Source: Bacteroidota bacterium (GTDB taxonomy: Bacteria; Bacteroidota; Ignavibacteria; Ignavibacteriales; Melioribacteraceae). From it: a DNA stretch of 64,000 nucleotides. Each line of letters opens with the position of its first letter. Within the stretch, counting starts at the first letter, position 1. Made by a program: the position numbers and the translations under genes. The notes under the pieces were generated by a model, which was not told the origin of the DNA, did no database searches, and saw only the letters and a program-made list of their open reading frames with translations. Shown piece by piece: positions 8,849 to 33,434 of the stretch. The stretch spans positions 1 to 64,000 of the forward strand of contig JAHISP010000036.1 in the NCBI GenBank assembly GCA_018818165.1, in the 5' to 3' direction.

Positions 8849-8882
8849 TTTCTCTACGCTTCAAATATAAATTACTTTATTC

Positions 8883-14116: not shown

Positions 14117-14311
14117 TGCATCATCTCCTTCTTAAAAAATATTTAATAATAGATTTTTAAATAATTTTCGCGTACCACATAGTCTTTTTCTTAAAACTCA
14201 TTTTCTCATAAATAAACAAAATATATTAGTAATACAACTAAATCAAAAATAAAAGGTGTACTAACTCTCATTTTGTTTGTTTCAACATTCACAAAAGCCA
14301 AATTGCTATTT

Positions 14312-16890: not shown

Positions 16891-17231
16891 GATATAACTC
16901 CTTAAACCATTGCTATCCAAATAATTCCCAATACTTCGTATAGATATGCCTTAAATATACAAAAGCTGCACATACTATCTATGTAACGGCTCAACTTTCG
17001 AAAACACATTTTACTCCTTTATTGGCTTCTGCCAAATAAAAATAATTTATTTGAGCTGATGCTCATAACTTTTTAGTTAATTCTTTCCGCTAGTTAAAAC
17101 TCGCTGTAATTCAATATCAAAATTTCAATTATGTGGCTTTCATCTTTAGGATTTATTTTATTAAAATATTTTCCATTTTCCATCTCTAATTTTCCGTTTT
17201 CTATCTTTATAATTTCCCATTACCTACCGCG
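16891..17231. other. 340-bp intergenic stretch
   Basis: This separates the methyl-transfer block from the PhnD-sensor pair. I see no coding frame, no strong hairpin with a T-run and no recognisable riboswitch. It should contain the promoter for the PhnD-like gene, but I cannot place its boxes with confidence. Confidence 0.4.
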
Positions 17232-17414: not shown

Positions 17415-17442
17415 ATTTTCCTTTTATAGAATATTTTGTTTA

Positions 17443-18228
17443 CTACTTTTCACTTGCATCGATTATATCACTCTTAATCATAAAATATTCTTTTACCGAA
17501 TTCCATGTTCGCAATAAAATATCAATTGTACCTTGCCTGATTTCAGTATTAAGCCCGGTAAGCTTAATAAATTCTTCAATATTATATTCCATTTCTTCCG
17601 GAGGCATTGTAGGATTAGTAATTAATAGTGCTCTTTTATATCGCTTGAACATGCTTTTTGCTGCTTTGATACTTTCACCGGGTAAGTTTTTATTTAGAAT
17701 TTTTCTCCAATTATATGTCCAACCTGGAATCATAAAAAAAGTGCCTGGTTCTTTACACTGCTCTGCATAGTAACAACTTCTTCCTCCAATTATTAATCCT
17801 ACACAGTCATCAACGGGATGTTCACCATCCATAGGTATAAATACAGGTACTTTTGCTTTAATTAGTTCTTCTGGATTATTGAGAGCGTTTCCGCACAAAC
17901 CATATCCCAGCAAAAATGCATCCACGTAGTGTGCAAGATTACGTGAGGTTTCAAGAATAGCTTTGCGCAGTATTTTTTTATTTCGGTGAAGTTCCAACTC
18001 AAGTACAACAACAACAACCTCCAGATTGTCCGAAGGTTCTTTACGGTAACTATTAAGATGAGGAATGCATTGAATTTGTTTTGAGTATTTTAATTCCAGA
18101 AGTTGGATTAACCGTGTAGAGTTGGAGTTTTCAATTATTGAAATTCTGCCTATCCCAGAATCTGTTCCCAAGATAAAAGCAAATTCTTGTGTTAAAATTT
18201 CGCACGTTATAATACCTAAAACAGCCAT
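17443..18228 (-). CDS. DUF1638 protein
   Basis: This 261-residue protein has the DUF1638 layout. It starts with a hydrophobic strand ending IITCEIL and carries LLGYGLCGNAL near the middle. A block DDCVGLIIGG then leads to a GTFFMIPGWTYNW segment. The biochemical function is unknown to me. The family is repeatedly found beside corrinoid-dependent methyltransferases in methanogens and anaerobic bacteria, and here it overlaps the RamA-type activase by one base (TAATG). A second, shorter member lies at the other end of the same block. A role in loading, activating or protecting the corrinoid protein would fit but is inference. It is longer than its paralogue because of a C-terminal domain of about 60 residues. 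Confidence 0.78.
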   Translation of the reverse strand: MAVLGIITCEILTQEFAFILGTDSGIGRISIIENSNSTRLIQLLELKYSKQIQCIPHLNSYRKEPSDNLEVVVVVLELELHRNKKILRKAILETSRNLAHYVDAFLLGYGLCGNALNNPEELIKAKVPVFIPMDGEHPVDDCVGLIIGGRSCYYAEQCKEPGTFFMIPGWTYNWRKILNKNLPGESIKAAKSMFKRYKRALLITNPTMPPEEMEYNIEEFIKLTGLNTEIRQGTIDILLRTWNSVKEYFMIKSDIIDASEK

Positions 18229-19886
18229 TATATTTCTTCCTCTGATGTTTTATCATCAAAATGGATTTTAAAAAAACTGTCTAAAGTCATTATCTTAATT
18301 GAGCAAGCATATTCACATTTTTTACAACTTACTCCTCGGCATAACGCCTCGTTAAGAATAATCGATATGGAACCACTCTCACTTAAAATTGATAATGCAT
18401 TCGTGGGACATACATCAATACATACATTGCATATGGTACATTGATCAAAATTTCTTTTAACAATTCTGCCTATGTTTGGAATAGTTTTTAATCCAAATAA
18501 ACCAAGATCATCAATATCTCTTTTAACTGTACGAATAATTTCGGGATTTCCATCAGCATTTGGAAGAGCGGGGAATGAATATTTTTTTAGAAAATTCCTA
18601 TACATTGATAAAGGCATTCCCTCTGTCCAATATGAAAGCTCCAAAATAAAAATCTTTTTAAAGATGTCGGATGAAGCAAAAATGTAATGAGTATCGCGTA
18701 ATTTAGATGCGAGCGAACTCATAAATTCCAAGTCGTTAGGATTCTTTGCTAACCGGCAAGCCATTGCCAAAGACGTGTTTCCCACCTGATATGTTTTTTT
18801 TACACTCGGAGGAATCATTCCTACCTGTAAAGCTTTTTTAGCATCAACATAAGTTCCCGCCGCGCCCGACATATAAATTGTGTGAATATCTTCTACAGAA
18901 ATACCTGCTGCTTTACAAAGAGTAAGATAACCGGCTCGTATAGCTCCAATTGCTTTTCCGGCTTCAGCTAAATCTTCTTCCGTAAAAGAAATATTATTCC
19001 CAAAGTGAAGACGCTTATCTGCTGTACAAATTCGCGGTAAAGATATCAGCCCGGTTTCAATAGCTTTATACATTGCTGCAATTGTGCCTGTGCTTGTTAT
19101 CCCGATTGGTTTTGGAAAATTAGAATTAACAGGTTGAGATTTCCCGGACATATCTACCAAAGAGCCTTCAACAGGCATTAAATCATTATCAAGTAAGGTC
19201 AATTTGAAATAAGGCTTAGAATATTCCACATCTGCAATAGCGCCGGGAATAGCTAAGACACCGCAAGAAATTTCCTGTCCTTCAAGCGCTGGACCCGCTG
19301 CTGCCGAAGCTGTTATTATTTTCCCTTTGTGGAATAGAGCGATCTCGGCATTTGTACCGAAGTCGATAGATATTGAAGTTTCTTCTTTATCGAGCATGCT
19401 GGTTTGAATAATCATTGCCAATGCGTCTGCACCTACATGATGACAAATAGACGGGGGAATAATTACATCACAGTTAAGTAAGTTTAAATTCGTGATGGAT
19501 TCAGCAGGAATAATAATTGCATCTCTATCCGGGATTTCAATTTGCATCGATTCAAATTTACGGCTTCCGGCAAAAGCTAAATCTTTAATCTCAGTTCCAT
19601 GGAATAAAGAAAGTTGTGTTGGATTTCCACACACAACCAAGCGAACAATATTTTTTGTATCAACACAAAGTTCGGTAATCAACCTGTTTACTGCATCAAT
19701 AAAAATATTGTGGGCTGTTTCAATTCCATATTCTAAAGCAAAATGGAGATGATCTATAATATTGGAGCCAGGTAAAGGATGATTGGTCGTAATAGCAGTG
19801 GACAATATTTCTCCTGAAGAAATATTAATACATTGAGCGCGAAAACCACTGGTTCCCAAATCTATAGCCACAGCCAATTGTGTCAT
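18228..19886 (-). CDS. ramA: RamA-type corrinoid reductive activase
   Basis: This 552-residue protein should reactivate the corrinoid protein by ATP-driven reduction of inactive Co(II) to Co(I). The N-terminal three quarters show ASKHA-type ATPase motifs (DLGTSGF at 9-15, DFGTNAE at 175-181, SGAAGTYVD at 340-348). The C terminus has two ferredoxin-like motifs: C483-C486-C489-C493-P and C516-C521-C524-C528, the second with a CX4C opening. This order, ATPase then two 4Fe-4S motifs, is that of archaeal RamA, not the N-terminal 2Fe-2S layout of acetogen O-demethylase activases. It lies 20 bp after mtaB and overlaps the DUF1638 gene. The symbol follows family resemblance; the exact corrinoid partner (MtaC or the second corrinoid protein) is not shown. 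Confidence 0.9.
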   Translation of the reverse strand: MTQLAVAIDLGTSGFRAQCINISSGEILSTAITTNHPLPGSNIIDHLHFALEYGIETAHNIFIDAVNRLITELCVDTKNIVRLVVCGNPTQLSLFHGTEIKDLAFAGSRKFESMQIEIPDRDAIIIPAESITNLNLLNCDVIIPPSICHHVGADALAMIIQTSMLDKEETSISIDFGTNAEIALFHKGKIITASAAAGPALEGQEISCGVLAIPGAIADVEYSKPYFKLTLLDNDLMPVEGSLVDMSGKSQPVNSNFPKPIGITSTGTIAAMYKAIETGLISLPRICTADKRLHFGNNISFTEEDLAEAGKAIGAIRAGYLTLCKAAGISVEDIHTIYMSGAAGTYVDAKKALQVGMIPPSVKKTYQVGNTSLAMACRLAKNPNDLEFMSSLASKLRDTHYIFASSDIFKKIFILELSYWTEGMPLSMYRNFLKKYSFPALPNADGNPEIIRTVKRDIDDLGLFGLKTIPNIGRIVKRNFDQCTICNVCIDVCPTNALSILSESGSISIILNEALCRGVSCKKCEYACSIKIMTLDSFFKIHFDDKTSEEEI

Positions 19887-19906
19887 TAAATGCCTATATA
19901 AAATTT

Positions 19907-21274
19907 TTATAAATTGTATGAAGAGGGTTTAAATCCCTTTACTTTACTATATTTTTTTAAACACATATCAATAAAATCATCTTCCTTATCAGGCAGTGCT
20001 TCTAGTTCTTTAATATATTTAGTTAACGATTCTTTTTCGAATGCAGTGAATTGTAAATTAGGGTCGTTAAACATAAGTTCACCGCTCTTTAATGCGGCGG
20101 CTCTTGCTCGTGAATATAGACTTTCATTATTATCAACAACAGCTTTACCAATTGCCCAAGCATTATCGGGGCAAAGTATAAAGCTATGTGGACTCCGGTA
20201 GCGGTCAGAATTGATTAAGCATGCCTGGAATTGTTTTTGAAATCCTAATTCAATTGCTGAATTTAATGCAGCAGCATCGTATCCCAGAATTTCTGTAAAA
20301 ACAGCCGACGAAGAACCGCCAAACATATCGGTGTATTGAATTGCTTCGTTAGACCAGAGATCGCATACGGCTGCCATCAGATTACCGCAAAGATCCATAT
20401 GCGCGCAAGCGCTCGCTTTTCCTTCTGTAGAGATAGGAATACCGGTAATAGCTTTGATTATCGGATTTTCGTAGGCGCAGTCTTTACCGGGTCCAACAGC
20501 TCCGCATTCATAGGCAACAAGAGTATTGCTAACGCTTATTGCCCGGCTTAAAGCTGCAAGAGTTTGAGGAATATCTTTCGAAATAAAACCACCAGCCATA
20601 AACATTGCAGTATTTGCATGAGCACAACTGGTATCGCCACCTGGAATACAATTGTTATTTTTGGCAATATCAACAATATTTGTCCATAGCCATTCCATAT
20701 CTCTTCCACCAAGCACAGCCTGCCCGAAAAGTAATCCCGTAACATCATTTCGAATAATGCTGTAATCAAATATTTCTTTACCGCCTAAGGATTCGATTGA
20801 TATAATATCGGCATATTTGGAACTATATTTAAATGCTTCAAAAATTTTATCGGTGCGTTCCGAGTTACGCATATCTATTTGATCAGGTTTGCGTATATCC
20901 GCAATAGTCGAACGGTACGAACACTTAAGTCCATACTTTTCATAATATTCATCTAATTGATGGGCAGTTTGTGCAGCTATTTCCATACCCCATTGGGGAT
21001 TATCGGTCATCTGAAAAACATGTTCATTTTCAATTTGAATAGCGGGTATGCCAACAATTACGCATCTTTCCAATGCATCTTCGTTAGCTCTTTCAAACTC
21101 GCGCAACAATGATTTAATAGTTTTCTCACTTCCTGGGCGCGGATGGGGAACAATTTCAGGAATAACATAACCTCCGCCCAAAATCAATCCGCGTTTTGTT
21201 TTAACCGGTTTTAAAGCAGTGCCGAATATCATTTCTTTAGCAGATTTATAAGCCATCGAATTGCTCAGTTTCAT
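19907..21274 (-). CDS. mtaB: Methanol:corrinoid methyltransferase MtaB
   Basis: A 455-residue zinc enzyme that should move the methyl group of methanol onto the corrinoid of MtaC. The decisive evidence is the ligand set E161 (SIESLGGKE), C217 (GGDTSCAHA) and C266 (GPGKDCAYE). The spacings of 56 and 49 residues are exactly those of E164, C220 and C269 in the Methanosarcina barkeri enzyme. The length also matches the family. No in-frame stop is present, so it is not a pyrrolysine-type methylamine enzyme. It lies between mtaC and ramA with 20-30 bp gaps, and AGAAGGA precedes the start. Methanol is the most likely substrate, but bacterial MtaB-like enzymes may accept other small alcohols or methyl donors. 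Confidence 0.92.
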   Translation of the reverse strand: MKLSNSMAYKSAKEMIFGTALKPVKTKRGLILGGGYVIPEIVPHPRPGSEKTIKSLLREFERANEDALERCVIVGIPAIQIENEHVFQMTDNPQWGMEIAAQTAHQLDEYYEKYGLKCSYRSTIADIRKPDQIDMRNSERTDKIFEAFKYSSKYADIISIESLGGKEIFDYSIIRNDVTGLLFGQAVLGGRDMEWLWTNIVDIAKNNNCIPGGDTSCAHANTAMFMAGGFISKDIPQTLAALSRAISVSNTLVAYECGAVGPGKDCAYENPIIKAITGIPISTEGKASACAHMDLCGNLMAAVCDLWSNEAIQYTDMFGGSSSAVFTEILGYDAAALNSAIELGFQKQFQACLINSDRYRSPHSFILCPDNAWAIGKAVVDNNESLYSRARAAALKSGELMFNDPNLQFTAFEKESLTKYIKELEALPDKEDDFIDMCLKKYSKVKGFKPSSYNL

Positions 21275-21304
21275 TTTATAATCCTTCTAATTTAAAAGTA
21301 AATT

Positions 21305-22054
21305 TTAACCATTCCACTTAGTTCTCATTTCTAACCAGCTTAATCCATTTAGAGCGTCTTCTGCCAAAGCTGGAGCCTGACTTGCTTCCTTGCCCCAAAT
21401 ACCTAAATCGAAACTTGTTACAAACTCTTCATTCACTGCACCGCCACCGCATATGAAAGGTATGTTTAAGTTTATTTGTTTTAATCCAAATGCAATTTTA
21501 GGAAAGGCAGTCATTGTGGTTGTCATTAAAGCTGTTCCTGTTACTATTATCGGTTTATGAATACGGCATGCTTCGATTACATCATCAACAGGCACATCAG
21601 CTCCAAGGTTTATTACTTCGTAACCGGCTGCGTTTAATAATGCATTTACAATAACCTGCCCGATATCATGGATATCACCTTCGGCAGTATGTGTTACAAC
21701 TTTCGCTTTCTTTTCCATTGGTCTTCCCAATTTCTGTTCACATAGTTTAATACCCGCAATCATAGAATCGGAGGATAAAATAACTTGTGGAAGAAAGTAA
21801 ACACCAAGCTCCCATAAACGGCTTACTTCTTTCATTCCGGCAATTAAACCGCCGTTAATAATTTCCATTGGCTCTTTAATATGTAGAATACTTTTAACTA
21901 GGTTTTCCAATTCATCTTCGTTACCCGAAACAATGCAATCTGCTACTTTTTGTAAATTTTCATCTTCCGATACTTTCCTTGCAGTTTGACGAGCAACTTC
22001 GACATTTATATCATACCTTGTAAATATTTTGTTTGTTTCTGATTTAGGTTTCAT
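21305..22054 (-). CDS. mtaC: Methanol corrinoid protein MtaC
   Basis: This 249-residue methyl carrier has a helical cap domain (about 25-110) followed by a B12-binding Rossmann domain. The cobalt-ligand motif is G126-D-I-H129-D-I-G. Later landmarks are INLGADVPVDDV, TALMTTTM and FICGGGAVNEEF. It would accept the methyl group from MtaB and pass it to a second methyltransferase. A GGAG site precedes the ATG. It lies 30 bp upstream of mtaB, and 58 bp separate it from the kinase-less sensor gene before it. The first 30 residues precede the cap domain proper; a later start is possible but no better ribosome site is seen. Confidence 0.9.
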   Translation of the reverse strand: MKPKSETNKIFTRYDINVEVARQTARKVSEDENLQKVADCIVSGNEDELENLVKSILHIKEPMEIINGGLIAGMKEVSRLWELGVYFLPQVILSSDSMIAGIKLCEQKLGRPMEKKAKVVTHTAEGDIHDIGQVIVNALLNAAGYEVINLGADVPVDDVIEACRIHKPIIVTGTALMTTTMTAFPKIAFGLKQINLNIPFICGGGAVNEEFVTSFDLGIWGKEASQAPALAEDALNGLSWLEMRTKWNG

Positions 22055-22112
22055 TTGTACTCCATATACAGAGTATATGATAATTAATTATTATATTTTA
22101 TTATTGTTTGTC

Positions 22113-25100
22113 TTAACTATGCACACTATACTTTTTGGGTTTTCCTTCTTTCTCAAGCAGCGCATTTATTTCTTTTTTTAACTCAATCATTTTTTCTTCT
22201 CTTCCAACCATAAGTCTGTTGAAACGATTAATTTCGTCTATCTGCTCTTTAAGCTCTTGTTCAATCCGTTTACGTTCAGTAACATCACGGAAATTTATAA
22301 CAATCCCATTCACACTCGGCACATTAAATAAATTTTTACCTGTCCCCTCTAAGTAACGCCAATTTCCGTCGCAGTGTAAAAATCTAAAGTCAACTTTCTC
22401 CGTTTCTCCAATTTTCGGCAATAATCCGATAAACTGTTTTTGAATTCGTTCAATATCTTCATGATGAACAAACTCAAAAGCACTTTTACCAATAAGTTCA
22501 CCGTGCCTATAACCCAAAACACTTTCATGGGAAGGACTTTCATATATAATATCACCATTCTTGTCGAGTAGAGAAATCACATCACTTGAGTTTTCTATTA
22601 AAGACCTAAAGTATTCCTCACTTTCTTTTAGATTGTTATATGCGATAAAGCTTGTTAGTGAATCTTCCAACCGTTTTCCGATCTCGTTGAAAAGTCGTTC
22701 TTCCTCTTTAGTCCAAATACGTACATATGAACTTTGATGAAATCCAAGCAGCCATGGCTTGCCTACTTTGGGATAAATTGCAACCGACATTAAGCATTTG
22801 AAACCAAACTGTTCCGATACTTCTGCAGGTAGTGGATACGAAGTATTAGTGCCAAATTGAAGAGGTCCGTTATTTGAAAGCAAAAGCCTGAGTATGCCTG
22901 CTACTTGTGTATCCATAGGTATCTCAAGTCCTGATTCAAGAATACCGCTATATTCCGGTTTAGTTCTCTCTATAAGTACTTTCAATGTTTCAATATTTGG
23001 ATCGCAAGGGTACATTAAGAATACCTGGTCGCAGTTGAAAATCGAAATCATGGTATTGAGTACACTACTCATCATTTTCTCAAGATTATTCGTTCCCTGA
23101 AAAGCCAGGTTAATTCTATCTATACTTTCAAAATAGCGGAGATTTTCCTGCCGTTCTTGCTCAATAATTTTGCGCTCGGTAATATCTTGCCCGATTGCCA
23201 AAACACCAATTATTATTCCATTACTATCGTGCTCTGCTACAAATGCTACTGCATAATTATTATCATTATCATTTAGATCGGTAAATACTATTTCCATTTC
23301 TATTGGATTACCGGTCTTTAAAACTTTTAATAGATTTTCCTGGTACTTTGTTACATCTTCCGAATTTTTAAATTTATGCTCAATTAGTCTTTGTCCCATA
23401 ATAGAAGTATCTGAATAATTACTAACTGCATTTTGATGATTTAGATATGTTACATTTCCATTAATATCGTAGCGCATTATATGATGAGGTAAATTTTCAG
23501 CTAAAGTTCTGAATTCTCTTTCTCTGTTTATAAGTTTCTGTTCAGCTTTTTTGCGTTCAGTAATATCAAATACTGTTGAACGGCTCATTATAAAATTTCC
23601 ATTACTATCTTTTAGAGCTGTAGCATTAAGCATTATAGGAAAGACTAAACCATCTTTACGAACTAATTCAAATTCTAAATCATTTATTAATCCTCTTTCC
23701 ATAAATACAGAAAAGTTTTTATTAAAAATCTCCTGGCTCTCTTTAGTAATAATATCAATGAATTTCATCTTTCCAACAACTTCATCAAAAGTATAGCCAA
23801 GCCATTCAAGTTCAGTATGGTTCATTCTTACGATCACACCATTTTTATCCAGTGAATGGTAACCGCACGGTGCGCGATTGTAAAGATCACGAATTTCTTC
23901 CGCAGCAAGATATAAAGCTTCTTCCGCCAGCTTGCTCTCTGTAATGTCCATAAGGTTTCCTACAAGTCGCACTACCTTACCTTCTTCATAAACAGGTTGG
24001 GCGGTTGTACGAATCCACAAAGGTTTCCCTGTGAACGTGGTGAATTGAAATTCAAAGTCATAGGGTTCACCCTGCTCACAAGCGCGTTGAAATGCATCTT
24101 GGAGGATTAGTCTATCTTCTGATCCGTAACACGTTAGACTTTCCTTTATATGATCTATGTTTGGATCGTTGGGTATTTCATGTATCCTATAGAGTTCTTC
24201 TGTCCAGAACATCTTACCCGACTTAACATCAAATTCCCAACCACCCACTTTGGTCAATTGTTGTGTAGTATTAAGCAAAGCCTCGCTTTTTTGCAGTGCT
24301 TCTTCAGCATGTTTACGCTCGGTAATATCAATAAGCGAAACAATAACCTTATCCCAATTATTTTCATATTCCTTGGCAATTGATTGCCTAATTACAACAT
24401 TTTTTATTTCACCGGTAAAATCTTTAAGTGTAGCTTCACCATAAAACTTAAATTTACCAGAAGCTAAAGCAATAAAAGTTTCCTTTACATATTTAAGCAG
24501 CTCGTCAGTTGTTGCATTACTCAGTCCGTTCAACAGACTTACTTTATCCTCAGCTTTGTATAATTCCAATGATGCATTGTTAAATGAATTTACTTTCATT
24601 TTATCAACACATTTTAAAACCTCCTCAGGATGATTATCAAAAAAGCTGCGCAAGTCTGTAACTCCACTCTCTTTAAGTTGATCTATAAGCTTTTTGACTT
24701 CTGAATAATCTTCTTCCCATAAAGAAATAGGAGAATCTTCAAATAGCTGATAATAGTGTGCCTCACTTTTGAGCAAAGCTTCTTCCGCATGTTTACGCTC
24801 TGTAATATCTCTTGTAACAGTTAAAATATTTTGAGGAATAAAATTTTCATCTCTTAGAAAAGATGCAGACATTTCAACCCAGATTATAGAACCATTCTTA
24901 TGATACATTTCTAATTCAAGCAAAATAGTTCTTGATGGATCGGATTTTCCACTAGTCTCAAACAATAATTGCTCGGTGAGAACATTCTTTGCCTTCTTAA
25001 ATGATTCAGGTGGTAAAATTTGATCTAAGGAAAGCACCAAAGCTTCTTCAACTGTAAATCCACGAAGTTTAAATACTGAAGGACTTAAATAAGTTGGTTT

Positions 25101-25361
25101 AAGCTCCATATCTAAAATAGAAATTGTATCAGCAGTGTTTTCGGCAATAAGACGATAACGCTCTTCACTTTCCTCTAATTTTTTTCTTGTCTCTTCCAGG
25201 TCTTCCAACATATTTAAAAGGGCTTCCGATTTTTTCTCAAGATACTCCATTTGTTCGAGTAATTGAGGATAATAAGTTTTACGGAAAGAATGTTCGCCAA
25301 TACCTATTAATTTTTCTTGTATTGAATATTCTTTATCTTTTGAATCAGAGTGCGCGTTCAT
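22113..25361 (-). CDS. Soluble six-PAS/one-GAF sensor without kinase
   Basis: A 1082-residue cytoplasmic protein with no membrane helix. After a coiled N terminus (about 20-65) come PAS1, a long PAS2 of the LWEEDYSEVKK type, PAS3, PAS4, PAS5, a GAF domain (about 750-930, with GFHQSSYVRIW) and PAS6. The chain ends with the helical tail NRFNRLMVGREEKMIELKKE. No catalytic output domain is present. It is translated just after the iron alcohol dehydrogenase, whose gene it overlaps by 17 nt, and just before mtaC. It is thus embedded in the methyl-transfer operon and probably senses a metabolite or redox state of that pathway. The heme-binding PAS/GAF kinases that control methyltransferase genes in Methanosarcina are a functional parallel, not a demonstrated homologue. 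Confidence 0.8.
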   Translation of the reverse strand: MNAHSDSKDKEYSIQEKLIGIGEHSFRKTYYPQLLEQMEYLEKKSEALLNMLEDLEETRKKLEESEERYRLIAENTADTISILDMELKPTYLSPSVFKLRGFTVEEALVLSLDQILPPESFKKAKNVLTEQLLFETSGKSDPSRTILLELEMYHKNGSIIWVEMSASFLRDENFIPQNILTVTRDITERKHAEEALLKSEAHYYQLFEDSPISLWEEDYSEVKKLIDQLKESGVTDLRSFFDNHPEEVLKCVDKMKVNSFNNASLELYKAEDKVSLLNGLSNATTDELLKYVKETFIALASGKFKFYGEATLKDFTGEIKNVVIRQSIAKEYENNWDKVIVSLIDITERKHAEEALQKSEALLNTTQQLTKVGGWEFDVKSGKMFWTEELYRIHEIPNDPNIDHIKESLTCYGSEDRLILQDAFQRACEQGEPYDFEFQFTTFTGKPLWIRTTAQPVYEEGKVVRLVGNLMDITESKLAEEALYLAAEEIRDLYNRAPCGYHSLDKNGVIVRMNHTELEWLGYTFDEVVGKMKFIDIITKESQEIFNKNFSVFMERGLINDLEFELVRKDGLVFPIMLNATALKDSNGNFIMSRSTVFDITERKKAEQKLINREREFRTLAENLPHHIMRYDINGNVTYLNHQNAVSNYSDTSIMGQRLIEHKFKNSEDVTKYQENLLKVLKTGNPIEMEIVFTDLNDNDNNYAVAFVAEHDSNGIIIGVLAIGQDITERKIIEQERQENLRYFESIDRINLAFQGTNNLEKMMSSVLNTMISIFNCDQVFLMYPCDPNIETLKVLIERTKPEYSGILESGLEIPMDTQVAGILRLLLSNNGPLQFGTNTSYPLPAEVSEQFGFKCLMSVAIYPKVGKPWLLGFHQSSYVRIWTKEEERLFNEIGKRLEDSLTSFIAYNNLKESEEYFRSLIENSSDVISLLDKNGDIIYESPSHESVLGYRHGELIGKSAFEFVHHEDIERIQKQFIGLLPKIGETEKVDFRFLHCDGNWRYLEGTGKNLFNVPSVNGIVINFRDVTERKRIEQELKEQIDEINRFNRLMVGREEKMIELKKEINALLEKEGKPKKYSVHS

Positions 25362-26511
25362 AAATTGCCTTTATATCTTCTAATTTTGGTTTTCGTGGAT
25401 TGGTGGCTAAACATGGATCTTCAATAGCATTTTTTGCCAATTGATCTAAATCCTTTTTACCTACTCCTAATTCACCAAGGGTTATATTTATTCCTGCATC
25501 CTTTCTAAGTTGTGCAATTTTATTTAGAAGAAGAGATTTTTTTTCCCTTGTATTCTGCATTTTCATATCAAGGTTTAAGGCTTCACTTATATTAGTATAT
25601 TTTTCGACCGAGGCCTCAAAATTGAAATCAATAACATATTCCAACAAAACGGCATTACAAACGCCATGCGCTAAACCTAATAAACCTCCAAGGCTATGCG
25701 CCATACTATGAACCAATCCTAAACTGGCGTTTGAAAAAGCCATACCTGCAAGTAAGCTTGCCATCATCATATTGTTTCGGTACTTCATATCCATAGGATT
25801 GTTAAGCGCATGAATTAAATTTTCGTTTATTAAACGAATGGCTTCTAGCGCAGCAAGATCCGTAATGGGAAAGCTTAAATTAGAAACATAAGCTTCACAT
25901 GCATGAACAAATGCGTCTATTCCTGTTGCTGCTGTAAGCTCGGTTGGCATTGTGGTTGTGGTTTCAGGATCGATTAAAGAAACATCTGGGATTACAGTTT
26001 TGCTGATGATAGCAATTTTAACTTTTCTAGATGAATCAACTATTATTGCAAATTGAGAAATATCAGCCGAAGTACCGGCAGTTGTTGGAATACAGATTAA
26101 AGGCGGTCCGGGAATTGGCACTTCATCTACGCCTTCAAACTCAAGAATATGTTTATTGTTGGTTGATACAATTCCAATACCCTTTGCGCAATCCAGTGGG
26201 CTTCCACCGCCAATAGCAACAATTATATCGCAGCCATTTTCACTAAAAGTTTTTACCCCCGCCATAACTTCATAATCTTTAGGATTTGGCGTTACATCCT
26301 TAAAAAGAACATATTGTATTCCTTCTTGAATTAAATTCTCTTCCACTTTCTTAACCCAGCCAGCCTGGATTATACCAGGATCGGTTACAAGCATCACTTT
26401 TTTTGCACCAAAATTTCTAATATGACGGCTGGTTAAATTAATAGCCCCTTGTCCATAAATGAATTCCGGGATGACAAATCTTCTGAGATTTAACAGACTT
26501 TCGTTTTCCAT
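25345..26511 (-). CDS. Iron-containing alcohol dehydrogenase
   Basis: This 388-residue group III NAD(P)-dependent alcohol dehydrogenase has the cofactor loop GGGSPLDCAK at 101-110. The metal ligands are D199, H203, H268 and H282, with spacing as in FucO and the NAD-dependent methanol dehydrogenases of Bacillus. It would interconvert an alcohol with its aldehyde, for example methanol and formaldehyde or a C2-C4 alcohol. Sequence alone does not fix the substrate. Its place in the operon, between two sensors and a few kilobases from mtaBC, suggests a second route for the same alcohol or disposal of an aldehyde. Its stop overlaps the next sensor start by 17 nt, and the upstream sensor ends 4 bp before its ATG. 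Confidence 0.88.
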   Translation of the reverse strand: MENESLLNLRRFVIPEFIYGQGAINLTSRHIRNFGAKKVMLVTDPGIIQAGWVKKVEENLIQEGIQYVLFKDVTPNPKDYEVMAGVKTFSENGCDIIVAIGGGSPLDCAKGIGIVSTNNKHILEFEGVDEVPIPGPPLICIPTTAGTSADISQFAIIVDSSRKVKIAIISKTVIPDVSLIDPETTTTMPTELTAATGIDAFVHACEAYVSNLSFPITDLAALEAIRLINENLIHALNNPMDMKYRNNMMMASLLAGMAFSNASLGLVHSMAHSLGGLLGLAHGVCNAVLLEYVIDFNFEASVEKYTNISEALNLDMKMQNTREKKSLLLNKIAQLRKDAGINITLGELGVGKKDLDQLAKNAIEDPCLATNPRKPKLEDIKAIYERAL

Positions 26512-26515
26512 CTTT

Positions 26516-29500
26516 CTATTCCTTTCTCAATAGTTTTAATTCAAGTTCAGCCATTCGTTTTTTTAATTCAACCATCTTTAGTTCCCTGCCAATTGTTAAT
26601 CTTTCAAATCTTTCAAGTTCATCTTTCCTTTTTTTCAATGCCTCTTCAACCTGTTTTCGTTCGGTTATATCTGTAATAATACCTTCAATAGCAATTGGAT
26701 TTCCAGCATTATTGCGTACTAAAATGTTACGTTGATTAAACCAGCGAACCTCGCCCGATTTATGAATGAATTGATATTCATATGTAGGGAAAATTTCACC
26801 TTTAATTAGATTTTTCCATTGCTCTTCAAAATAATTATGCCAATCGGGATGAATTGCATTTTTGATAAGTAGTGGAGAATTATAACATTCTTTAGGAGAA
26901 TAACCGAAAACAGAAAGAGCAGCCTGACTTACGTATTCATATTCTCCATCAGGTACCGACATTCTGTAAATCACATCCTGTGCATTTTCCGCTAAGCGTC
27001 GGAACCGTTCTTCGCTTTGACGTAGTGATTCCGCAGCCAGCTTGCGCTCGGTAATGTCTCTTGCAACCATTAGTACTGTGTTATCTGACATTGGAGAAAT
27101 GGTAGCATCAAACCAGAGTATCTTATTCCCAATAGGTAAATTGTATTCAATACTAAGTAATTTGCTTTCTTTAAGAGTTTGTGAAATATAATTTAGAAAA
27201 TAGTCAGCCTGATCTTTTGGAAATACTTCATGGAGTGTTTTCCCCAATAATTCCTTTGGCGGTTTATATAAGAGAGAAGGATTCGTTTCAGCGATTTTTA
27301 AATAGCGTCCTTCTGAGTTTAGTACAAGCACAACATCAGTCATAGCTGAAAACAATGCACGTAATTCAGCTTCCGATGAACGTAATGTTGCTTCCGCCAG
27401 CTTTCGATCTGTAATATCCTGCACTGTTCCTATTGATAGAAGAGGTTTATCTCCGTCATAGAAAGTCTCGCACTGCTCATGCACAAATTTAATACGTCCA
27501 TCAGAAAAAAGAAGTCTATGGTCAATAGAGTAGGGAGTTTTGTTATTAAGCGAGTTTGTATAAGCAAAATTAACTGCTTCCCTATCGTCGGGATGAATTG
27601 TGTCGAGAAAAGCATCGTAAGTAGTTTTGAATTTTTTGGAGTCAATTTCGAATATTCTATATATTTCATCAGACCAAATAAGAACATTATTGCTCAAATT
27701 CAATTCCCAGCTTCCAATATGTGCAAGGTGTTGAGCTTCATTGAGCTGAGCTTCCCTTTTTAATACTGCTTCTTCCGCCCGCTTGCGTTCCGCGATTTCC
27801 CAAGTAAGGTCGGCAAGAATTGAAATTACTTCTATATCTTTTTTATTATAATCACTCGTCTTGTTTCCTACACCAAGGACTGCTTTTATTTTTTCACTTC
27901 GTAGCACAGGCACAACAAGTTCTCTTATTAATTCGGCGTGCCCCTCCGGCATACCTTTTCGGTTTGGTAGTGAGGTGTAATCATTATGGACTACAGGTCT
28001 TCTCCTATATACACATTCAGCCCAAACACCGGCTGCATCAATTGCATAGTGTAATCCTTTACCTTCAGCTTTGCAAAATTCAGCCTTTGTTCTTGTTGAC
28101 CAATTCTGAAGTGTAAGTGTTTTTTGATCATCTTCAACAAAATGATAAAAACCGATGAGACTGCCAGTAAGTAGCTCGGCTTGGTTCAATGTTTCCTCTA
28201 ATAATTCATCTAATGAATGGGTTGCTGCGAATTGCAATAGGGATAATCGTGTTGTATTTATTGCGTCATTTCGTTTTCTTTCGGTAATATCTGTAACTAT
28301 CGCTTCAATTGCAATTGGATTGCCGGATACATCCTGTACTAAAATATTACGTTGATTCAACCAACGGACTTCTCCCGATTTATGAATTATCTGATATTCA
28401 TAAAAAGGAGGCATTTCACCTTTAAGAAGATTTGCCCATTGCTCTTCAAAATATTTATGCCAATCGGGATGTATTGATTTTTTGATAATCATTGGCGAAT
28501 TATAACATTCTTCAGGAGAATAGCCGAAAACGGAAAGAGCAGCCGGACTTACATATTCATATTTACCATCAGGCAACGACATTCTATAAATTACGTCGCG
28601 AGCATTTTCCGTTAACCGACGGAACTTTTCCTCACTTTCTTTTAGAGTGTTATGTGCAATATAACTTGTTAGCGAATCTTCCAATCTTCGACCAATCTCT
28701 TTGAAAAGCCGTTTTTCTTCAAAAGTCCAGGTTCGTACATATGAGCATTGGTGCATCCCAAACGCCCAAGGTTTTCCTACTTTCGGACGCACGGCTGTCA
28801 TTATCATTGATTTTACACTAAATTTTTCACTACTAACTTTGTTGATTGGTCTGTCACTGCCTTCTGCGAAAGTAATTGGTTCATCGGATTTGAGGGCTTG
28901 TCCTAAATTGTCAGCCATATCGGATGGCATAGGTAAATCCACATTCAAGATTCCGGCACCTGGATATTCATGTTTTGTAATTTCCATTGGAACTTGAAAC
29001 ATAGATGCATCCGGATCGCAGGGATACAAAAGCCATACACGATCACTATCAAAAATAGAAAGCACTGTAGCGAGTACTTCACTCATCATTTGCTCAAGAG
29101 AATCTTTGCCTTGAAGAGCCAGGTTAATTCTATCTATGCTTTCAAAGAAATGCAGATTCGTCAGACGTTCCTGTTCAACAAGTATGCGCTCGGTTATATC
29201 TCTGGCAACCGCATATATTAATTTGTCTGATGGGAAGGAATTCCACTCAATCCATTTGTATGAACCATCCTTGCAAAGGTATCGGTTAGTAAACCGTAAC
29301 ACTTCATTCTGCTTTTCAAGATTTGCAATTGCTAGCAAAGTTGATTCTAAATCATCAGGATGAACCAAATCGAGAAACCGTTTGCCTTCCAATTCGTTTA
29401 ATGGAAAACCAAGTGTTGATTCCCATTCGGGATTTAGCCGGCGAAAATATCCATCAGTATCTGCAATACACAATAAATCGAGCGACTTTGTAAAGTAACG

Positions 29501-31156
29501 TTCCAATTCTTCCGACTTTTCTAATAATGCTTGTTCCGCAATCATTCGATTATTCTGGGTTTCTATAAATTCAAGAGCGAAAGAAATATCCAACGCCATT
29601 TCTACGAGAAGGTCAATATCTTCTTTTTCAAAAAAATTGATTTCATCGGCATAGATACTTAGCGCTCCAACCACTTTATTAAAAACAATCAACGGGAATG
29701 ATGCAGAAGATTTATAACCATATTTAATTGCGTCTTTTTGCCATGGGATCATGGTCTCATCTGTTTCAATATTATTTGATATTTTGCATTTGCCTGATTT
29801 AATTGCTTGTCCTGCTGGACCGCTACTTAGCAACTCGTTATTTAAGTCGATGTTAATTTTTTCAAGGTAATCTCCGGTAAAACCATTGGAAGCTCCAACT
29901 TCAACTTTATTTGTAATAGGATTTACCAACCCAATCCATACCATTCTGAACATACCATATTCAACGGCTATATGGCAGACTTCATTTTGTAGTTCCTTCG
30001 TATCATGAATTCTAACAATGGTCTGGTTGATATTGCTGAGTACAGCATAAATACGATTGAGTTTAACTATTTGCTTCTCCGCCTGCTTGCGCTCGGTAAT
30101 ATCACGGATGAATGCAGTTATACCAACAATTTCTTCATGTTGAAAAATTGGATTCCAACTGAATTCATAATAGATGTCTGGTTCCGGCTGATGCTGTTCT
30201 TCCGAAAACGTTTCTCCTTGTAACACCCTATCCATACTATTTTTTGCGGATTCCCTTAATTCCGGTATCAACATACAGTTGAGCAGGTTCATCCCAATTT
30301 TAATATCAACATTCCAAACTGTTTTCATTGCCTCGCGATGTTTTTCATTAAAAGCCGTGTAGCAATAGTCTGTATCTAAAGAGAAAATTATTATATCACC
30401 GGGACTATTAATCAATGCTGAGAGTAAGGTATACTGTGATATTAACTGCTGTTCAGCGCGTTGGCGCACAGCAAGCTCGTCTTCAAGTACATTATTCACT
30501 TCATGTAATTCAATTGTTCGCTCTTCAACTCTGTTTTCAAGTTCTTCATTTATGGTTCTTAGTTCTTCTTCGGCAAGTTTGCGTAAATTGTTTTCTTCGG
30601 AAAGTTGGTCGAAAGCAGCTTTAAGTTTTGTTTGACCCTGTATCTCGTTTTTTAATATATGAGCTGCATAACTGAAAAATGTAGGCAAGTTGGAACGTAA
30701 GTCGCTCGCGCTAATATACAAGTCTTCGATTTTAATAACAGCGATAAGATCAACGCCAATCGTAAGCGGGAATGCCCATATATTTGCTTTTGTAGATTCA
30801 GCTGTGAGCAATTTGGTGTCGCTAAAATCACTTTGATACTCAATAAGCGTTTTTGTTTCGAAAACTTTTTTTACAAATTCATCTTCAATCAGGTCGATCC
30901 TTTTTGTTTCACCCAATACATCGGCATAGTATATCTCATCGTCAATTACATAGTAAATAATAATATTTGATCCGCCAATATTTTCGAATATAATTTGTAA
31001 TAGATTTTGAATTGTGTTTTGTAATCCCGAAACAGCGCTCATTTTACCCATCAGGTGAGTAAATAACTGCAAATAGGATTTTTCAATTGCAAGTTTTTTT
31101 ACTCTTTCATGAAGGTTGTTATACTCTTCTTTTGAAATAAGAATCTCACCATCCAT
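26516..31156 (-). CDS. Soluble ten-domain GAF/PAS sensor without kinase
   Basis: A 1546-residue cytoplasmic protein. Order by eye: N-terminal GAF-like domain (20-185), coiled coil (190-245), PAS, GAF, PAS, GAF (with GMHQCSYVRTW), PAS, GAF, PAS, PAS, PAS. It closes with the tail ERFERLTIGRELKMVELKKR. There is no histidine kinase, cyclase or DNA-binding domain. Two of its PAS domains (about 860-985 and 1395-1510) are near duplicates, at DNA level too. Its start lies 11 nt inside the DUF1638 gene and its stop is 4 bp before the alcohol dehydrogenase, so translation is coupled within the methyl-transfer block. Two large sensors in one catabolic operon suggest that more than one signal is read. 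Confidence 0.8.
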   Translation of the reverse strand: MDGEILISKEEYNNLHERVKKLAIEKSYLQLFTHLMGKMSAVSGLQNTIQNLLQIIFENIGGSNIIIYYVIDDEIYYADVLGETKRIDLIEDEFVKKVFETKTLIEYQSDFSDTKLLTAESTKANIWAFPLTIGVDLIAVIKIEDLYISASDLRSNLPTFFSYAAHILKNEIQGQTKLKAAFDQLSEENNLRKLAEEELRTINEELENRVEERTIELHEVNNVLEDELAVRQRAEQQLISQYTLLSALINSPGDIIIFSLDTDYCYTAFNEKHREAMKTVWNVDIKIGMNLLNCMLIPELRESAKNSMDRVLQGETFSEEQHQPEPDIYYEFSWNPIFQHEEIVGITAFIRDITERKQAEKQIVKLNRIYAVLSNINQTIVRIHDTKELQNEVCHIAVEYGMFRMVWIGLVNPITNKVEVGASNGFTGDYLEKINIDLNNELLSSGPAGQAIKSGKCKISNNIETDETMIPWQKDAIKYGYKSSASFPLIVFNKVVGALSIYADEINFFEKEDIDLLVEMALDISFALEFIETQNNRMIAEQALLEKSEELERYFTKSLDLLCIADTDGYFRRLNPEWESTLGFPLNELEGKRFLDLVHPDDLESTLLAIANLEKQNEVLRFTNRYLCKDGSYKWIEWNSFPSDKLIYAVARDITERILVEQERLTNLHFFESIDRINLALQGKDSLEQMMSEVLATVLSIFDSDRVWLLYPCDPDASMFQVPMEITKHEYPGAGILNVDLPMPSDMADNLGQALKSDEPITFAEGSDRPINKVSSEKFSVKSMIMTAVRPKVGKPWAFGMHQCSYVRTWTFEEKRLFKEIGRRLEDSLTSYIAHNTLKESEEKFRRLTENARDVIYRMSLPDGKYEYVSPAALSVFGYSPEECYNSPMIIKKSIHPDWHKYFEEQWANLLKGEMPPFYEYQIIHKSGEVRWLNQRNILVQDVSGNPIAIEAIVTDITERKRNDAINTTRLSLLQFAATHSLDELLEETLNQAELLTGSLIGFYHFVEDDQKTLTLQNWSTRTKAEFCKAEGKGLHYAIDAAGVWAECVYRRRPVVHNDYTSLPNRKGMPEGHAELIRELVVPVLRSEKIKAVLGVGNKTSDYNKKDIEVISILADLTWEIAERKRAEEAVLKREAQLNEAQHLAHIGSWELNLSNNVLIWSDEIYRIFEIDSKKFKTTYDAFLDTIHPDDREAVNFAYTNSLNNKTPYSIDHRLLFSDGRIKFVHEQCETFYDGDKPLLSIGTVQDITDRKLAEATLRSSEAELRALFSAMTDVVLVLNSEGRYLKIAETNPSLLYKPPKELLGKTLHEVFPKDQADYFLNYISQTLKESKLLSIEYNLPIGNKILWFDATISPMSDNTVLMVARDITERKLAAESLRQSEERFRRLAENAQDVIYRMSVPDGEYEYVSQAALSVFGYSPKECYNSPLLIKNAIHPDWHNYFEEQWKNLIKGEIFPTYEYQFIHKSGEVRWFNQRNILVRNNAGNPIAIEGIITDITERKQVEEALKKRKDELERFERLTIGRELKMVELKKRMAELELKLLRKE

Positions 31157-31748
31157 TTGATTTATCGCCTTTTTGTTGTAATGATAAAAATAAAACCGAC
31201 TCTAAATTTTCTAATCCGACATCCAACCATCTCAAGGGCAGATCAACATACCGCGCCATAATCTCGGCTTCTTTTGAGAAGTAACCGGAACATGGTGTTC
31301 TTAAAGCTAATATATATTTTCTATCTTCCCGGAAAATTTGCTGTACGATTTCTTTATTATCGCCAAAGGTTTTTTTAGAGATATAGTTCCAGCGGTTCGC
31401 CCAGTCTTCTAAAAGGAAAAATGCTCCGTTAGATAATTCTCTGGTAAACACTTCATTCCCCAATAATATGTCAACACAGTTTTGTCCTGCTGTGCGGAAT
31501 GTATTAGCATCCCGAAGAATATTATCTATTAGAGGATGACATTCGCCGTAAAAGACAAATGTATTTTTATCGGATTGTTTTTTAAGTGCTAACGAAAGGT
31601 TCTTTTGCAACTTTTCGAAATTGATATGAAGAGACGAATCAAGAAAAACAGTATCCAGCAACCAATTGTTTTTTTTTATCAGCCAATTGATTTCCTTTTT
31701 TAAAATACCGCATCCAACAAGAATATGTTTGTTTGTATTATTTTTCAT
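31146..31748 (-). CDS. DUF1638 protein, short form
   Basis: A 200-residue member of the DUF1638 family. It opens with HILVGCGILKKEINWL, has LHINFEKLQKNL in the expected place, then FVFYGECHP and NCVDILLGNE. The GWxxxW-like segment is replaced by FFLLEDWANRW. The frame is open to a TTG at 31,775, but the ATG at 31,748 gives the usual family N terminus and an 11-nt overlap with the UroD-like gene. It belongs to a corrinoid protein/UroD/DUF1638 cassette that parallels the MtaC/MtaB/RamA/DUF1638 cassette downstream. Function unknown. Divergence from the 17,443 protein is large, so the two are not a recent duplication. Confidence 0.7.
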   Translation of the reverse strand: MKNNTNKHILVGCGILKKEINWLIKKNNWLLDTVFLDSSLHINFEKLQKNLSLALKKQSDKNTFVFYGECHPLIDNILRDANTFRTAGQNCVDILLGNEVFTRELSNGAFFLLEDWANRWNYISKKTFGDNKEIVQQIFREDRKYILALRTPCSGYFSKEAEIMARYVDLPLRWLDVGLENLESVLFLSLQQKGDKSNGW

Positions 31749-32772
31749 AACTGCCAAACTCGTAAGCGGCTTCAAGCATTATCTTAATATTCTCTTCGGG
31801 AATAGCTAATGGCATTACCGCTGTTGTGAAAAGGAATTTTCCACCAGGCATGCCGGCATCAATTATTCTTTTTACCTCATTTCTTATCTCTTCTTTTGAC
31901 CAGTCGATTAGCTTTATATCATTAATTGATCCGCATATTAATCCGCGACCAGCAATGATGCGTTTGCCTTCAGCAACATCATCCAGCGGACTTAGGTAGT
32001 AACTTCTTATCCCGGTCCGTTTTAGCAGGATATCCAGTACATTATTGAAGCGTGCCTGCGCACAAAAGTATACAATATCCTTAGTCCCAATAGAACTAAT
32101 GTCCTTTTCGATCCATGGGAGAGATTGGTCCATAAAGTATTTCATAGGAACCGCATCTGTTGATCCAAAGAAATTAGCGTAGAATAAAACATCGGCTCCT
32201 TCTTTACGGTAAGCCGCCACTTCCTTTATAAAAAAGTCATTGCATTTGGCTAATAATTCATCCCGCAATTCCTCTGGTCCCATTAAAAGCAGTTCCATCC
32301 ACTTGCTCATTCCCATTAGCATTGCGGGCAAAGTCATTGACGAGGTTATATAGGCACATATAGGGTACTTACCATCAGATTCTTTTTTTAGGATTCGCAA
32401 ACATTTAAGGGATTCTTCAAATTTCGGATGGCTTAAAATATCATCAGGTATTTCGAGTTTGTGAATATCTTCAGGTTTCCTGATTACCATTTGACCAACA
32501 TTGGGCGGACCATAATCCGAGTAAATAATATTTCCGCAACCCATCAATTCTACTTCTTTACCGACATAAAAAAGAGACCAGAGGTTGTCATATCCATATT
32601 TTTCACGCATTTTTAACTGCCCTTCGGCAACATATTCACCCTTTGAATAATATTCTTTCAATGACATCCCCAATTCTTTAGCTCCCTGATCGAACATGTT
32701 ACAAAATACTGGTATACGGTCGGATTTTTCACCATTAACTGCGGCTATTAGTCTGTCCATTCCGGTTATCAT
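31738..32772 (-). CDS. UroD-family (MtaA-like) methyltransferase homologue
   Basis: This 344-residue protein has the uroporphyrinogen decarboxylase fold. It has a DRIPVF-type opening and a late CGSINDIKLID segment. MtaA/MtbA-type members take the methyl group from a corrinoid protein, using zinc held by His-x-Cys and a late Cys. Here the HxC position reads Y235-F-C237, and the late Cys region (about 315-322, FTTAVMP) has no Cys. Two of three zinc ligands therefore appear missing. It may use another chemistry, pass methyl to tetrahydrofolate, or be non-catalytic. Its ATG overlaps the stop of the corrinoid protein gene (ATGA), so the two proteins are almost certainly partners. Heme-pathway HemE is unlikely given this context. 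Confidence 0.75.
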   Translation of the reverse strand: MITGMDRLIAAVNGEKSDRIPVFCNMFDQGAKELGMSLKEYYSKGEYVAEGQLKMREKYGYDNLWSLFYVGKEVELMGCGNIIYSDYGPPNVGQMVIRKPEDIHKLEIPDDILSHPKFEESLKCLRILKKESDGKYPICAYITSSMTLPAMLMGMSKWMELLLMGPEELRDELLAKCNDFFIKEVAAYRKEGADVLFYANFFGSTDAVPMKYFMDQSLPWIEKDISSIGTKDIVYFCAQARFNNVLDILLKRTGIRSYYLSPLDDVAEGKRIIAGRGLICGSINDIKLIDWSKEEIRNEVKRIIDAGMPGGKFLFTTAVMPLAIPEENIKIMLEAAYEFGSYEK

Positions 32773-33434
32773 GATCGTACCTCCGAAATTAATTTTGTTA
32801 CAATTTTACCGGCTTCAATTCCATTTTCAGCCCAAGCATCCGCATGGACAATTTTGTAGAGTTCGTGATTATACTTATATGGCGCGCCTCCAACAATAAT
32901 TTTAATTTTATTTTCAAGTCCTCTTTCTTTTAGAATCTCGCGTACCCTAATACATCCGTTTTTTCCATTAGCAGTATGCATCATCATTGAAGATATTCCT
33001 ATTACCTGTGCTTCATGTGCAATAGTTTCATTAACAAATTTCTCGGGGGTAACATTTAATCCTAGGTCAACGGCTTCAATCATATTTGCTTTCAAGCACC
33101 CGATAACAATTTTCTTACCTAACCCATGAAAATCGCCATGCGAGGTACCGATTACCATTCTCCCAATTATTTTAGGAGGTGATTTGAATTTAGAAATTAG
33201 TTCTTCGGTAGCCTGTGCTGCAATTTGTGCAGTCATAAAATGTTGTGCAAGATTTGCACCGAAATCTTGACTGATTGAAGTTGACATAAATTCAATTGAA
33301 GGGACAATAACTTCAAAAACTATTTCTTCAGGTGTTAAACCTTGTTGTAGAGCTTCATAAACAACTTTTAGAGCGGCATTTTTATCCGTGTCAAAAATTG
33401 CCTGGTTGTACGCTTCTTTTACTTGAGCAATCAT
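32769..33434 (-). CDS. Second methyltransferase corrinoid protein
   Basis: A 221-residue carrier with a helical cap (about 1-85) and a B12-binding domain whose cobalt-ligand motif is G100-D-F-H103-G-L-G. Further family marks are DLGLNVTPEKF, ISSMMMHT and KIIVGGAPY. The frame runs to 33,491, but the ATG at 33,434 follows AAGGAAG and gives the normal family N terminus. It differs from MtaC and looks closer to the MtbC/MttC group used with methylated amines and other donors. No matching first methyltransferase is adjacent. It may draw on MtaB or on a donor enzyme elsewhere. This is the first gene of the methyl-transfer block. Confidence 0.85.
   Translation of the reverse strand: MIAQVKEAYNQAIFDTDKNAALKVVYEALQQGLTPEEIVFEVIVPSIEFMSTSISQDFGANLAQHFMTAQIAAQATEELISKFKSPPKIIGRMVIGTSHGDFHGLGKKIVIGCLKANMIEAVDLGLNVTPEKFVNETIAHEAQVIGISSMMMHTANGKNGCIRVREILKERGLENKIKIIVGGAPYKYNHELYKIVHADAWAENGIEAGKIVTKLISEVRS

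Follow-up and report, generated by a model that had tools for sequence, protein, structure and literature searches.

The window analysed here is a 64,000-nucleotide stretch of DNA (positions 1 to 64,000 of the forward strand of contig JAHISP010000036.1, assembly GCA_018818165.1) from a Bacteroidota bacterium of the Ignavibacteria family Melioribacteraceae. It contains an operon of ten open reading frames (ORFs), all on the minus strand, that runs from 33491 (or from 33434, if the first protein begins at M20) down to 17443. Adjacent ORFs overlap by 4, 38, 11, 17 or 1 bp or are separated by 4, 58, 30 or 20 bp. The widest gap of 58 bp agrees with the initial annotation, which had described ten co-directional genes with overlaps or gaps below 60 bp. 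Judging from gene order in other genomes, the ten genes form three enzyme-plus-sensor modules, each of which is found elsewhere beside its own histidine kinase (HK).

We assigned gene families using Pfam and NCBIfam models and compared scores with the model cut-offs (Table 1). These models agree with the initial annotation on two corrinoid proteins, a UroD-like protein, a RamA-type activase and two DUF1638 proteins (89 and 116 bits to PF07796), and its two large PAS/GAF sensors likewise stand, at 1546 and 1082 residues. Neither sensor contains a HisKA or HATPase domain (Pfam, E ≤ 1e-3), and the signal must therefore be passed on by another kinase.

Table 1. Features of the ten-gene operon and its flanks
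Feature	Position	Strand	Evidence or remark
CorA, B12-binding corrinoid protein, module 1	32769..33491	-	PF02310; probable start 33434
UroD-superfamily methyltransferase-like protein, module 1	31738..32772	-	PF01208 163 bits
DUF1638 protein (a), module 1	31146..31775	-	PF07796; order conserved
PAS/GAF sensor, 1546 aa, module 1; no kinase domain, GRE..MVELK tail	26516..31156	-	
N-terminal ~240-aa GAF-like domain of the 1546-aa sensor; likely receiver for the corrinoid module	30437..31156	-	
ErcA-family iron alcohol dehydrogenase, module 2	25345..26511	-	NF041833 613 bits (cut-off 550)
PAS protein, 1082 aa, module 2; no kinase domain, GRE..MIELK tail	22113..25361	-	
MtaC-like corrinoid protein, module 3	21305..22054	-	PF02310/PF02607; NF040655 258 bits, below cut-off 420
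MtaB, methanol:corrinoid methyltransferase family, module 3	19907..21274	-	PF12176 678 bits
RamA-type reductive activase, module 3	18228..19886	-	TIGR04270 718 bits (cut-off 500)
DUF1638 protein (b), module 3	17443..18228	-	PF07796; AlphaFold model pLDDT 90
Candidate partner kinase, dCache_3-PAS-HisKA-HATPase	34116..36560	-	Pfam; on the same strand, 624 bp upstream
PhnD-like binding protein plus sCache-PAS protein that shares the GRE tail; possible accessory pair	14312..16920	-	Pfam

Module 1 comprises CorA, the UroD-like protein, a DUF1638 protein and the 1546-residue sensor. Window CorA has an intact base-off motif (DFHGLG), and the DxHxxG motif is kept in all seven cassette corrinoid proteins that we checked. 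Its homologues at loci L127, L142, L145, L170 and L171 align from residue 20, and those at L128, L172 and L177 from residues 2-9 (L and G numbers denote loci and genomes). To collect related cassettes we combined a phylum scan (E ≤ 1e-20), an A1 profile (E ≤ 1e-60), tblastn against plasmids, and PF01208 matches in the type A genomes described below. The order corA-uroD-DUF1638 (as a gene or a fused domain)-sensor/output is conserved in 24/24 loci, the window included, from three phylum-level groups; these are all the examined matches to cassette-type UroD and do not sample UroD genes at random. Within the phylum of the window, cassette UroD relatives occur in 3 of 295 other genomes, and all three (L127, L128, L140) are corA-uroD-DUF1638-kinase units. 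Cassette-type UroD occurs in 11 of 299 Pseudomonadota genomes, always as RACo-corA-uroD-DUF1638-sensor, and in 4 of 247 genomes of the phylum of Desulfospira, always as corA-uroD-DUF1638-kinase with one corA cut by a contig end; Desulfospira joergensenii DSM 10085 (L188) is among the carriers. Four more loci come from the methanotroph genomes G107, G109 and G110, in which one had already been counted, and all five of their UroDs besides the HemE-like top matches sit in sensor cassettes. One further cassette (L157) lies on plasmid pAZKH of Azoarcus sp. KH32C, flanked by formaldehyde-oxidation genes (fae, fhc) and a pyrroloquinoline quinone (PQQ) methanol/ethanol dehydrogenase cluster. Ten UroD regions were fetched, of which five (L141-L145) are sensor cassettes and five (L146-L150) are not; the latter comprise one region of Opitutaceae G106 and four of the eight UroD matches in Bacteroidales G105. 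The L148 UroD scores only 67 bits to the window UroD, and L146-L150 otherwise have no UroD match in the ORF table. The window's own genome encodes two further non-HemE-like UroDs (L129, L130; ORF table only), and the one at L130 stands beside a corrinoid protein with no sensor.

The protein at the sensor/output position carries kinase domains in 17 of the 24 cassettes (seven by Pfam, ten by an HK profile built in this analysis), GGDEF in two, and neither in five, namely the window, L169-L171 and L173. In these last four loci the genes after the kinase-less sensor encode two kinases and a binding protein, which belongs to the NMT1 family in both loci scanned. The cassettes L144 and L145 have GGDEF-EAL outputs, which are cyclic di-GMP (c-di-GMP) enzymes. 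In three loci DUF1638 is fused to the output protein itself. L143 encodes DUF1638 (Pfam 30.6 bits, cut-off 27) joined to PAS and GGDEF; in L141 (PAS-GGDEF) and in the Azoarcus protein WP_015451906 of L157 (HATPase), the DUF1638 domain was detected with i-E-values of 2e-11 and 1.4e-6, only by a hidden Markov model built from other sequences and in a search of eight proteins. These fusions are, in our view, the best single argument that the corrinoid/DUF1638 unit may act as a signalling input. The N-terminal domain of the window's 1546-residue sensor, about 240 residues long, is 71% identical to the L127 kinase and 44% identical to the L128 kinase, and has a counterpart in 18 of the sensors from the other 23 cassettes; the remainder of the sensor varies. 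Pfam GAF_3 is found in 6 of 16 members of this domain (E ≤ 0.1) and no Pfam family in the window member; the domain is probably a GAF-like receiver.

Module 3 comprises MtaC, MtaB, RamA and the second DUF1638 protein. Window MtaB can be aligned over its full length with Methanosarcina MtaB (2i2x), and its residues E161, C217 and C266, at positions that we take to be zinc-binding, match the zinc ligands of that structure, in line with the intact ligands claimed initially. It scores below the NCBIfam equivalog NF040651 (657.8 bits, cut-off 720). The end-to-end match, ligands included, makes methanol our guess for the natural substrate of module 3, and the only ligand of the operon that can be guessed. 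A pattern scan of 84,980 genomes with MtaB retained 80 loci. In a midpoint-rooted maximum-likelihood tree, which left out the window's own copy among these (L081), 22 loci and the window form one fully supported clade adjoining methanogen MtaB, and the window groups with six type A rows, L012 and L023 (support 98/82). The MtaB of L079 (Ignavibacteriae) groups with the differing MtaBs of two relatives of the window, a placement consistent with the Ignavibacteria-type host of the initial annotation. These two relatives (L121, L122; G001, G040) carry the other MtaB type, 35-37% identical to that of the window. It is accompanied by corrinoid and RamA-like proteins, no kinase was flagged in the stretches covered, and these loci are probably ordinary demethylation clusters.

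Two arrangements recur within the clade. Type A (ten loci) has mtaC-mtaB-ramA-DUF1638 followed by a kinase of about 2000-2500 residues, and its hosts are Desulfobulbaceae (two), Aegiribacteria, Sabulitectum, Bacteroidales, Opitutaceae, methanotrophs (three) and a clam symbiont. Type B (eight loci, mostly Desulfobacterota) typically combines UroD, mtaC, CobW, a sigma54 regulator, mtaB and ramA in varying order. The giant kinases of L009 and L011 contain Pkinase, AAA, GAF, PAS, HisKA and HATPase domains by Pfam; the others were recognized by phmmer and the HK profile. Twelve other clade loci have a b-type DUF1638 gene after ramA (L005-L015, L023), and a giant kinase comes next in 11 of them; that of the Phycisphaerae locus L023 is cut by the contig end and was read by eye, and L012 (Methanospirillaceae) has a PAS/PocR protein instead. 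PocR domains, which sense small molecules, are present in both the L011 giant kinase (1540-1701; methanotroph) and the L012 sensor (14021-17425; archaeon), and L015 has an HD output of the c-di-GMP type. Among loci with at least 3 kb of sequence, the start of a kinase lies no more than 4 kb downstream of mtaB in 11 of 20 clade loci (ten type A, one of six type B, none of four others) versus 0 of 42 outside the clade, with nine loci that lack a separate mtaB ORF counted by coordinates. An HK lies anywhere in the surrounding sequence in 1 of 58 loci outside the clade.

Distances over the first 1480 residues of the kinase correlate with those of DUF1638 (rho 0.94), RamA (0.89), MtaC (0.88, n=9) and MtaB (0.57), and these values were reached in 0 of 2000 permutations each (3 of 2000 for MtaB in a first run). 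The C-terminal part of the kinase tracks the same proteins only weakly (0.24-0.35). This pattern suggests that the input half of the kinase travels with the enzymes and that the output half is swapped.

Module 2 pairs the iron alcohol dehydrogenase of the initial annotation, more specifically an ErcA, with the 1082-residue PAS protein, whose gene overlaps ercA by 17 bp. ErcA, a family named as regulatory, scores above the cut-off of its NCBIfam model in 5 of 58 genomes, the window's own included, and in the other four, ercA touches or overlaps a gene for a PAS histidine kinase of 608-3012 residues. In the window, the partner is itself no histidine kinase. Its first 80 residues align with the start of one ErcA-partner kinase (34%), and its middle part is 46% identical to the module 1 kinase of L127. 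Given these similarities to kinases, both window sensors look like derivatives from which the kinase domain has been lost. ErcA/YiaY and its kinase are reportedly required in Pseudomonas to activate the alcohol (ped) cluster fully (PMC12997753).

The UroD partner in catabolic MtaABC systems has an MtaA-type zinc site (HxC...C), for which MtaA 4AY7 served as our reference. Compared with 4AY7, the window UroD has Tyr in place of the first His ligand and lacks the C-terminal Cys, and it scores 102 bits to the MtaA/CmuA model TIGR01463 (cut-off 235). We aligned the UroDs of the 24 cassettes with six UroDs from type B clusters, which look catabolic. None of the 24 cassette UroDs retains more than one of the three ligands, and none has the C-terminal Cys; 17 keep the Cys of HxC alone, three (L141, L143, L157) the His alone, and four (L140, L174, L187, L188) no ligand. 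All six type B UroDs have all three ligands. UroD-family frames at L189-L193 (G099, G118, G100, G116, G112) each contain one in-frame TGA, in the same alignment column in 5/5, where type B UroD has its C-terminal zinc-ligand Cys (FAPG-U-D.PYDVP); these proteins are probable selenocysteine methyltransferases.

We also looked for a methyl acceptor, taking in carbon monoxide dehydrogenase/acetyl-CoA synthase (CODH/ACS) and methyl-tetrahydrofolate (methyl-THF):corrinoid methyltransferase; the coenzyme M route and the two other non-HemE-like UroDs lay outside this test. The window's genome, which is 100% complete, has no CdhC/AcsB and so no CODH/ACS, and its only match to methyl-THF:corrinoid methyltransferase is 26% identical and part of a 1233-residue, MetH-sized frame, with no stand-alone enzyme. 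CODH/ACS is present in one of ten type A genomes and in all eight type B genomes. In the DNA surrounding the 23 other cassettes we found no AcsE-type or zinc-type UroD gene apart from a MetH-like 26% match adjoining L127. As no acceptor enzyme was found, methyl-corrinoid could accumulate as a signal.

Four residues of DUF1638 (C9, H81, C112 and C142) are invariant in both subfamilies and could serve in metal binding or in contacts with the corrinoid. Genetic evidence links DUF1638 and a RamA-like protein to B12 reactivation, with no specific role for DUF1638 given in the portion of the paper available (PMC5764234), and a second report, in its available portion, calls the role of DUF1638 in reactivation predicted (PMC12478193). 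At L139 (G131), a second DUF1638 gene adjoins a RamA-like gene with no corA or uroD match in the ORF table, and by analogy resembles the methionine-synthase reactivation type.

We think it probable that the window encodes a composite chemosensory operon, in which corrinoid methylation, together with ErcA chemistry, is used as signalling input and not as a catabolic route. More tentatively, at a little under an even chance, we propose a new type of sensory system in which a dedicated B12 protein receives a methyl group from a substrate-specific corrinoid methyltransferase, and DUF1638 reads the corrinoid state of that protein and drives a kinase or diguanylate cyclase; the window would combine two such detectors with an ErcA alcohol detector. 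In this scheme MtaB would pass the methyl group of methanol to Co(I)-MtaC, the UroD-like protein would pass one from an unspecified donor to CorA, and RamA and DUF1638 would reload inactive corrinoid. DUF1638 would read the methylated or redox state of the corrinoid protein and hand it to the N-terminal receiver of the PAS/GAF protein, and ErcA would report alcohol oxidation to the 1082-residue PAS protein. Both sensors would in turn signal through another kinase, for which the protein encoded at 34116-36560 is a possible candidate.

The most serious alternative, which we consider unlikely, is a catabolic operon for methanol or methylated compounds whose sensors merely control its own expression. 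MtaB, MtaC and RamA are complete, and the checked MtaB residues and CorA corrinoid motif are intact, so that the enzymes may still turn over and serve catabolism. MtaB of this clade also occurs in type B clusters, together with a zinc-type UroD, sigma54 regulators and CODH/ACS, which indicates that the clade is not only sensory, and the mec cassette is a known catabolic corrinoid cluster with a two-component system (PMC9768040). Against catabolism stand the acceptor and zinc-ligand results for the operon's own genome and UroD, the lack of AcsE-type or zinc-type UroD genes beside the cassettes, and the fusion or joining of some cassettes to c-di-GMP outputs. The initial annotation had suggested that the operon may be a methanol or methylated-compound pathway feeding tetrahydrofolate. 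The absence of CdhC/AcsB, the lone MetH-sized match, the loss of two UroD zinc ligands and the position of cassettes beside kinases argue against that proposal. Its idea of sensory control inside the operon survives in part: the sensors do belong to the unit, but the conserved neighbourhood exists as separate modules and not as this operon.

Several further points weigh against a sensory function. The full three-module operon was found only in the window, its sensors lack kinase domains, their partner kinase is a guess, and the step from corrinoid state to kinase signalling is putative. Type A is defined by its kinase, which makes ten of ten true by definition, and the fairer counts are those over loci with b-type DUF1638 and those of kinases downstream of mtaB. 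The type A genome of L008 has CdhC; AcsE-type proteins occur in the L005 and L008 genomes (44-45%) and, more weakly, in those of L009 and L023 (31%). In the UroDs of L141, L143 and L157 the first His is retained and the third ligand column also holds a His, so that another metal site is possible. MtaB of the clade is seldom found close to its hosts (in the family of G110, 2 of 201 genomes, both already known), and most loci come from metagenome-assembled genomes (MAGs) of unstated completeness. The predicted DUF1638b model yields a fold match that is uninformative: among 50 Foldseek rows the query TM scores were about 0.15-0.40, and the best VIA-align Z of 9.3 came among many alpha/beta proteins (racemases, HypB, ParA, SRP GTPases), none nameable as a relative. 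Association of the UroD cassette with PQQ alcohol dehydrogenase was considered and rejected, since one of 11 Pseudomonadota cassette genomes versus 67 of 299 Pseudomonadota genomes exceeded the TIGR03075 cut-off; this lack of enrichment leaves a general methanol or alcohol theme for module 1 unsupported.

B12 proteins can serve as photoreceptors, as CarH does. The corrinoid proteins could accordingly sense light, redox or B12 supply (by methylcobalamin photolysis or the Co(II)/Co(I) couple), with the methyltransferases only charging the chromophore, and RamA/RACo-type reactivases do accompany type A and Pseudomonadota cassettes. We regard this as improbable: MtaC scores 42 bits on the CarH model NF052513 (cut-off 400), and the cassettes retain substrate-type methyltransferases of two unrelated kinds (MtaB or UroD), for which a sensor of light or redox state alone would have no use. 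That the genes are neighbours without functional coupling, assembled by gene transfer, is very improbable, as the patchy distribution that would fit it (DUF1638 in 4 of 296 genomes of the window's phylum; MtaB in 3 of 97 relatives' genomes, own included, with the own copy alone in the clade) is set against an order conserved in 24/24 cassettes, overlapping genes, domain fusions and the correlated distances of DUF1638 and the kinase N terminus.

The flanks of the operon offer possible partners for the chemosensory scheme. The assignment of the kinase at 34116-36560 to the operon sensors is inference from position only. Three kinase-less PAS proteins (14312-15952, 22113-25361, 26516-31156) end in a common GRE..M.ELK tail, a pattern that occurs in no ORF of L001-L083 apart from the window's own copy and is possibly a docking helix for a shared kinase. 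Just 3' of the operon, the gene for the PhnD-like binding lipoprotein overlaps that of the sCache-PAS protein. The matching place at L169-L171 and L173 is taken by kinases and a binding protein, the latter of the NMT1 family in L169 and L170, and a link of this accessory pair to the operon is possible. Further along, at 8276-14116, Pfam identifies two DUF4154 (YfiR-like) and TonB-receptor pairs in tandem. A promoter and terminator scan at the operon's upstream end gave no signal above shuffled sequences, and one weak stem lies downstream on the opposite strand. Rfam and tRNA scans of the 64-kb window found no match, and a search of plasmids for MtaB gave none.

Corrinoid methyltransferases in genomes are read as catabolic or biosynthetic. 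Should a recurrent class of them prove sensory, some 'methylotrophy' labels given to MAGs would be mistaken, DUF1638 would acquire a role open to testing, and bacteria would be able to detect methanol and other methyl donors by performing a single methyl transfer. The sensory reading can be tested in two named strains that hold cassettes, Desulfospira joergensenii DSM 10085 and Azoarcus sp. KH32C.

The operon shares with the MtaABC systems of methanogens and acetogens an MtaB with zinc ligands, an MtaC-like corrinoid protein and a RamA-type activase. Unlike them, it has no zinc-type MtaA and is coupled to sensors, in a genome without CODH/ACS or a stand-alone methyl-THF acceptor. MsmS and RdmS of Methanosarcina have been linked with heme. 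They and MecA of the mec cassette are, like the cassette kinases, sensor kinases linked to corrinoid methyltransferases (PMC11784639, PMC9768040). In the passages available, MsmS and RdmS lack an H-box and are discussed as redox (thiol) sensors, and MecA is proposed to bind its ligand through PocR; those passages describe no DUF1638-linked methyltransferase input for either. RamA-like and DUF1638 proteins also lie beside a corrinoid protein in the reactivation systems outlined in the accessible parts of PMC5764234 and PMC12478193, where they serve methionine synthesis or betaine demethylation, whereas in the window and its cassettes they are joined or fused to kinases and cyclases. Open-access PubMed Central literature, searched by title or the text available, offers corrinoid-methyltransferase-linked kinases and an enzyme-linked kinase, and in it we found neither a conserved methyltransferase-corrinoid-DUF1638 input unit nor a description of these cassettes as sensors. 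That enzyme-linked kinase belongs to the ErcA-ErcS (YiaY-YiaZ) pair of Pseudomonas, in which, as in the window, a PAS protein comes directly after an ErcA-family alcohol dehydrogenase and the enzyme is thought to modulate the kinase (PMC12997753). The window's PAS partner differs in lacking a kinase domain, and its pair lies in the midst of corrinoid modules. The operon would thus be enzyme-coupled sensing in a new form, with a realistic chance of representing a new type of sensor.

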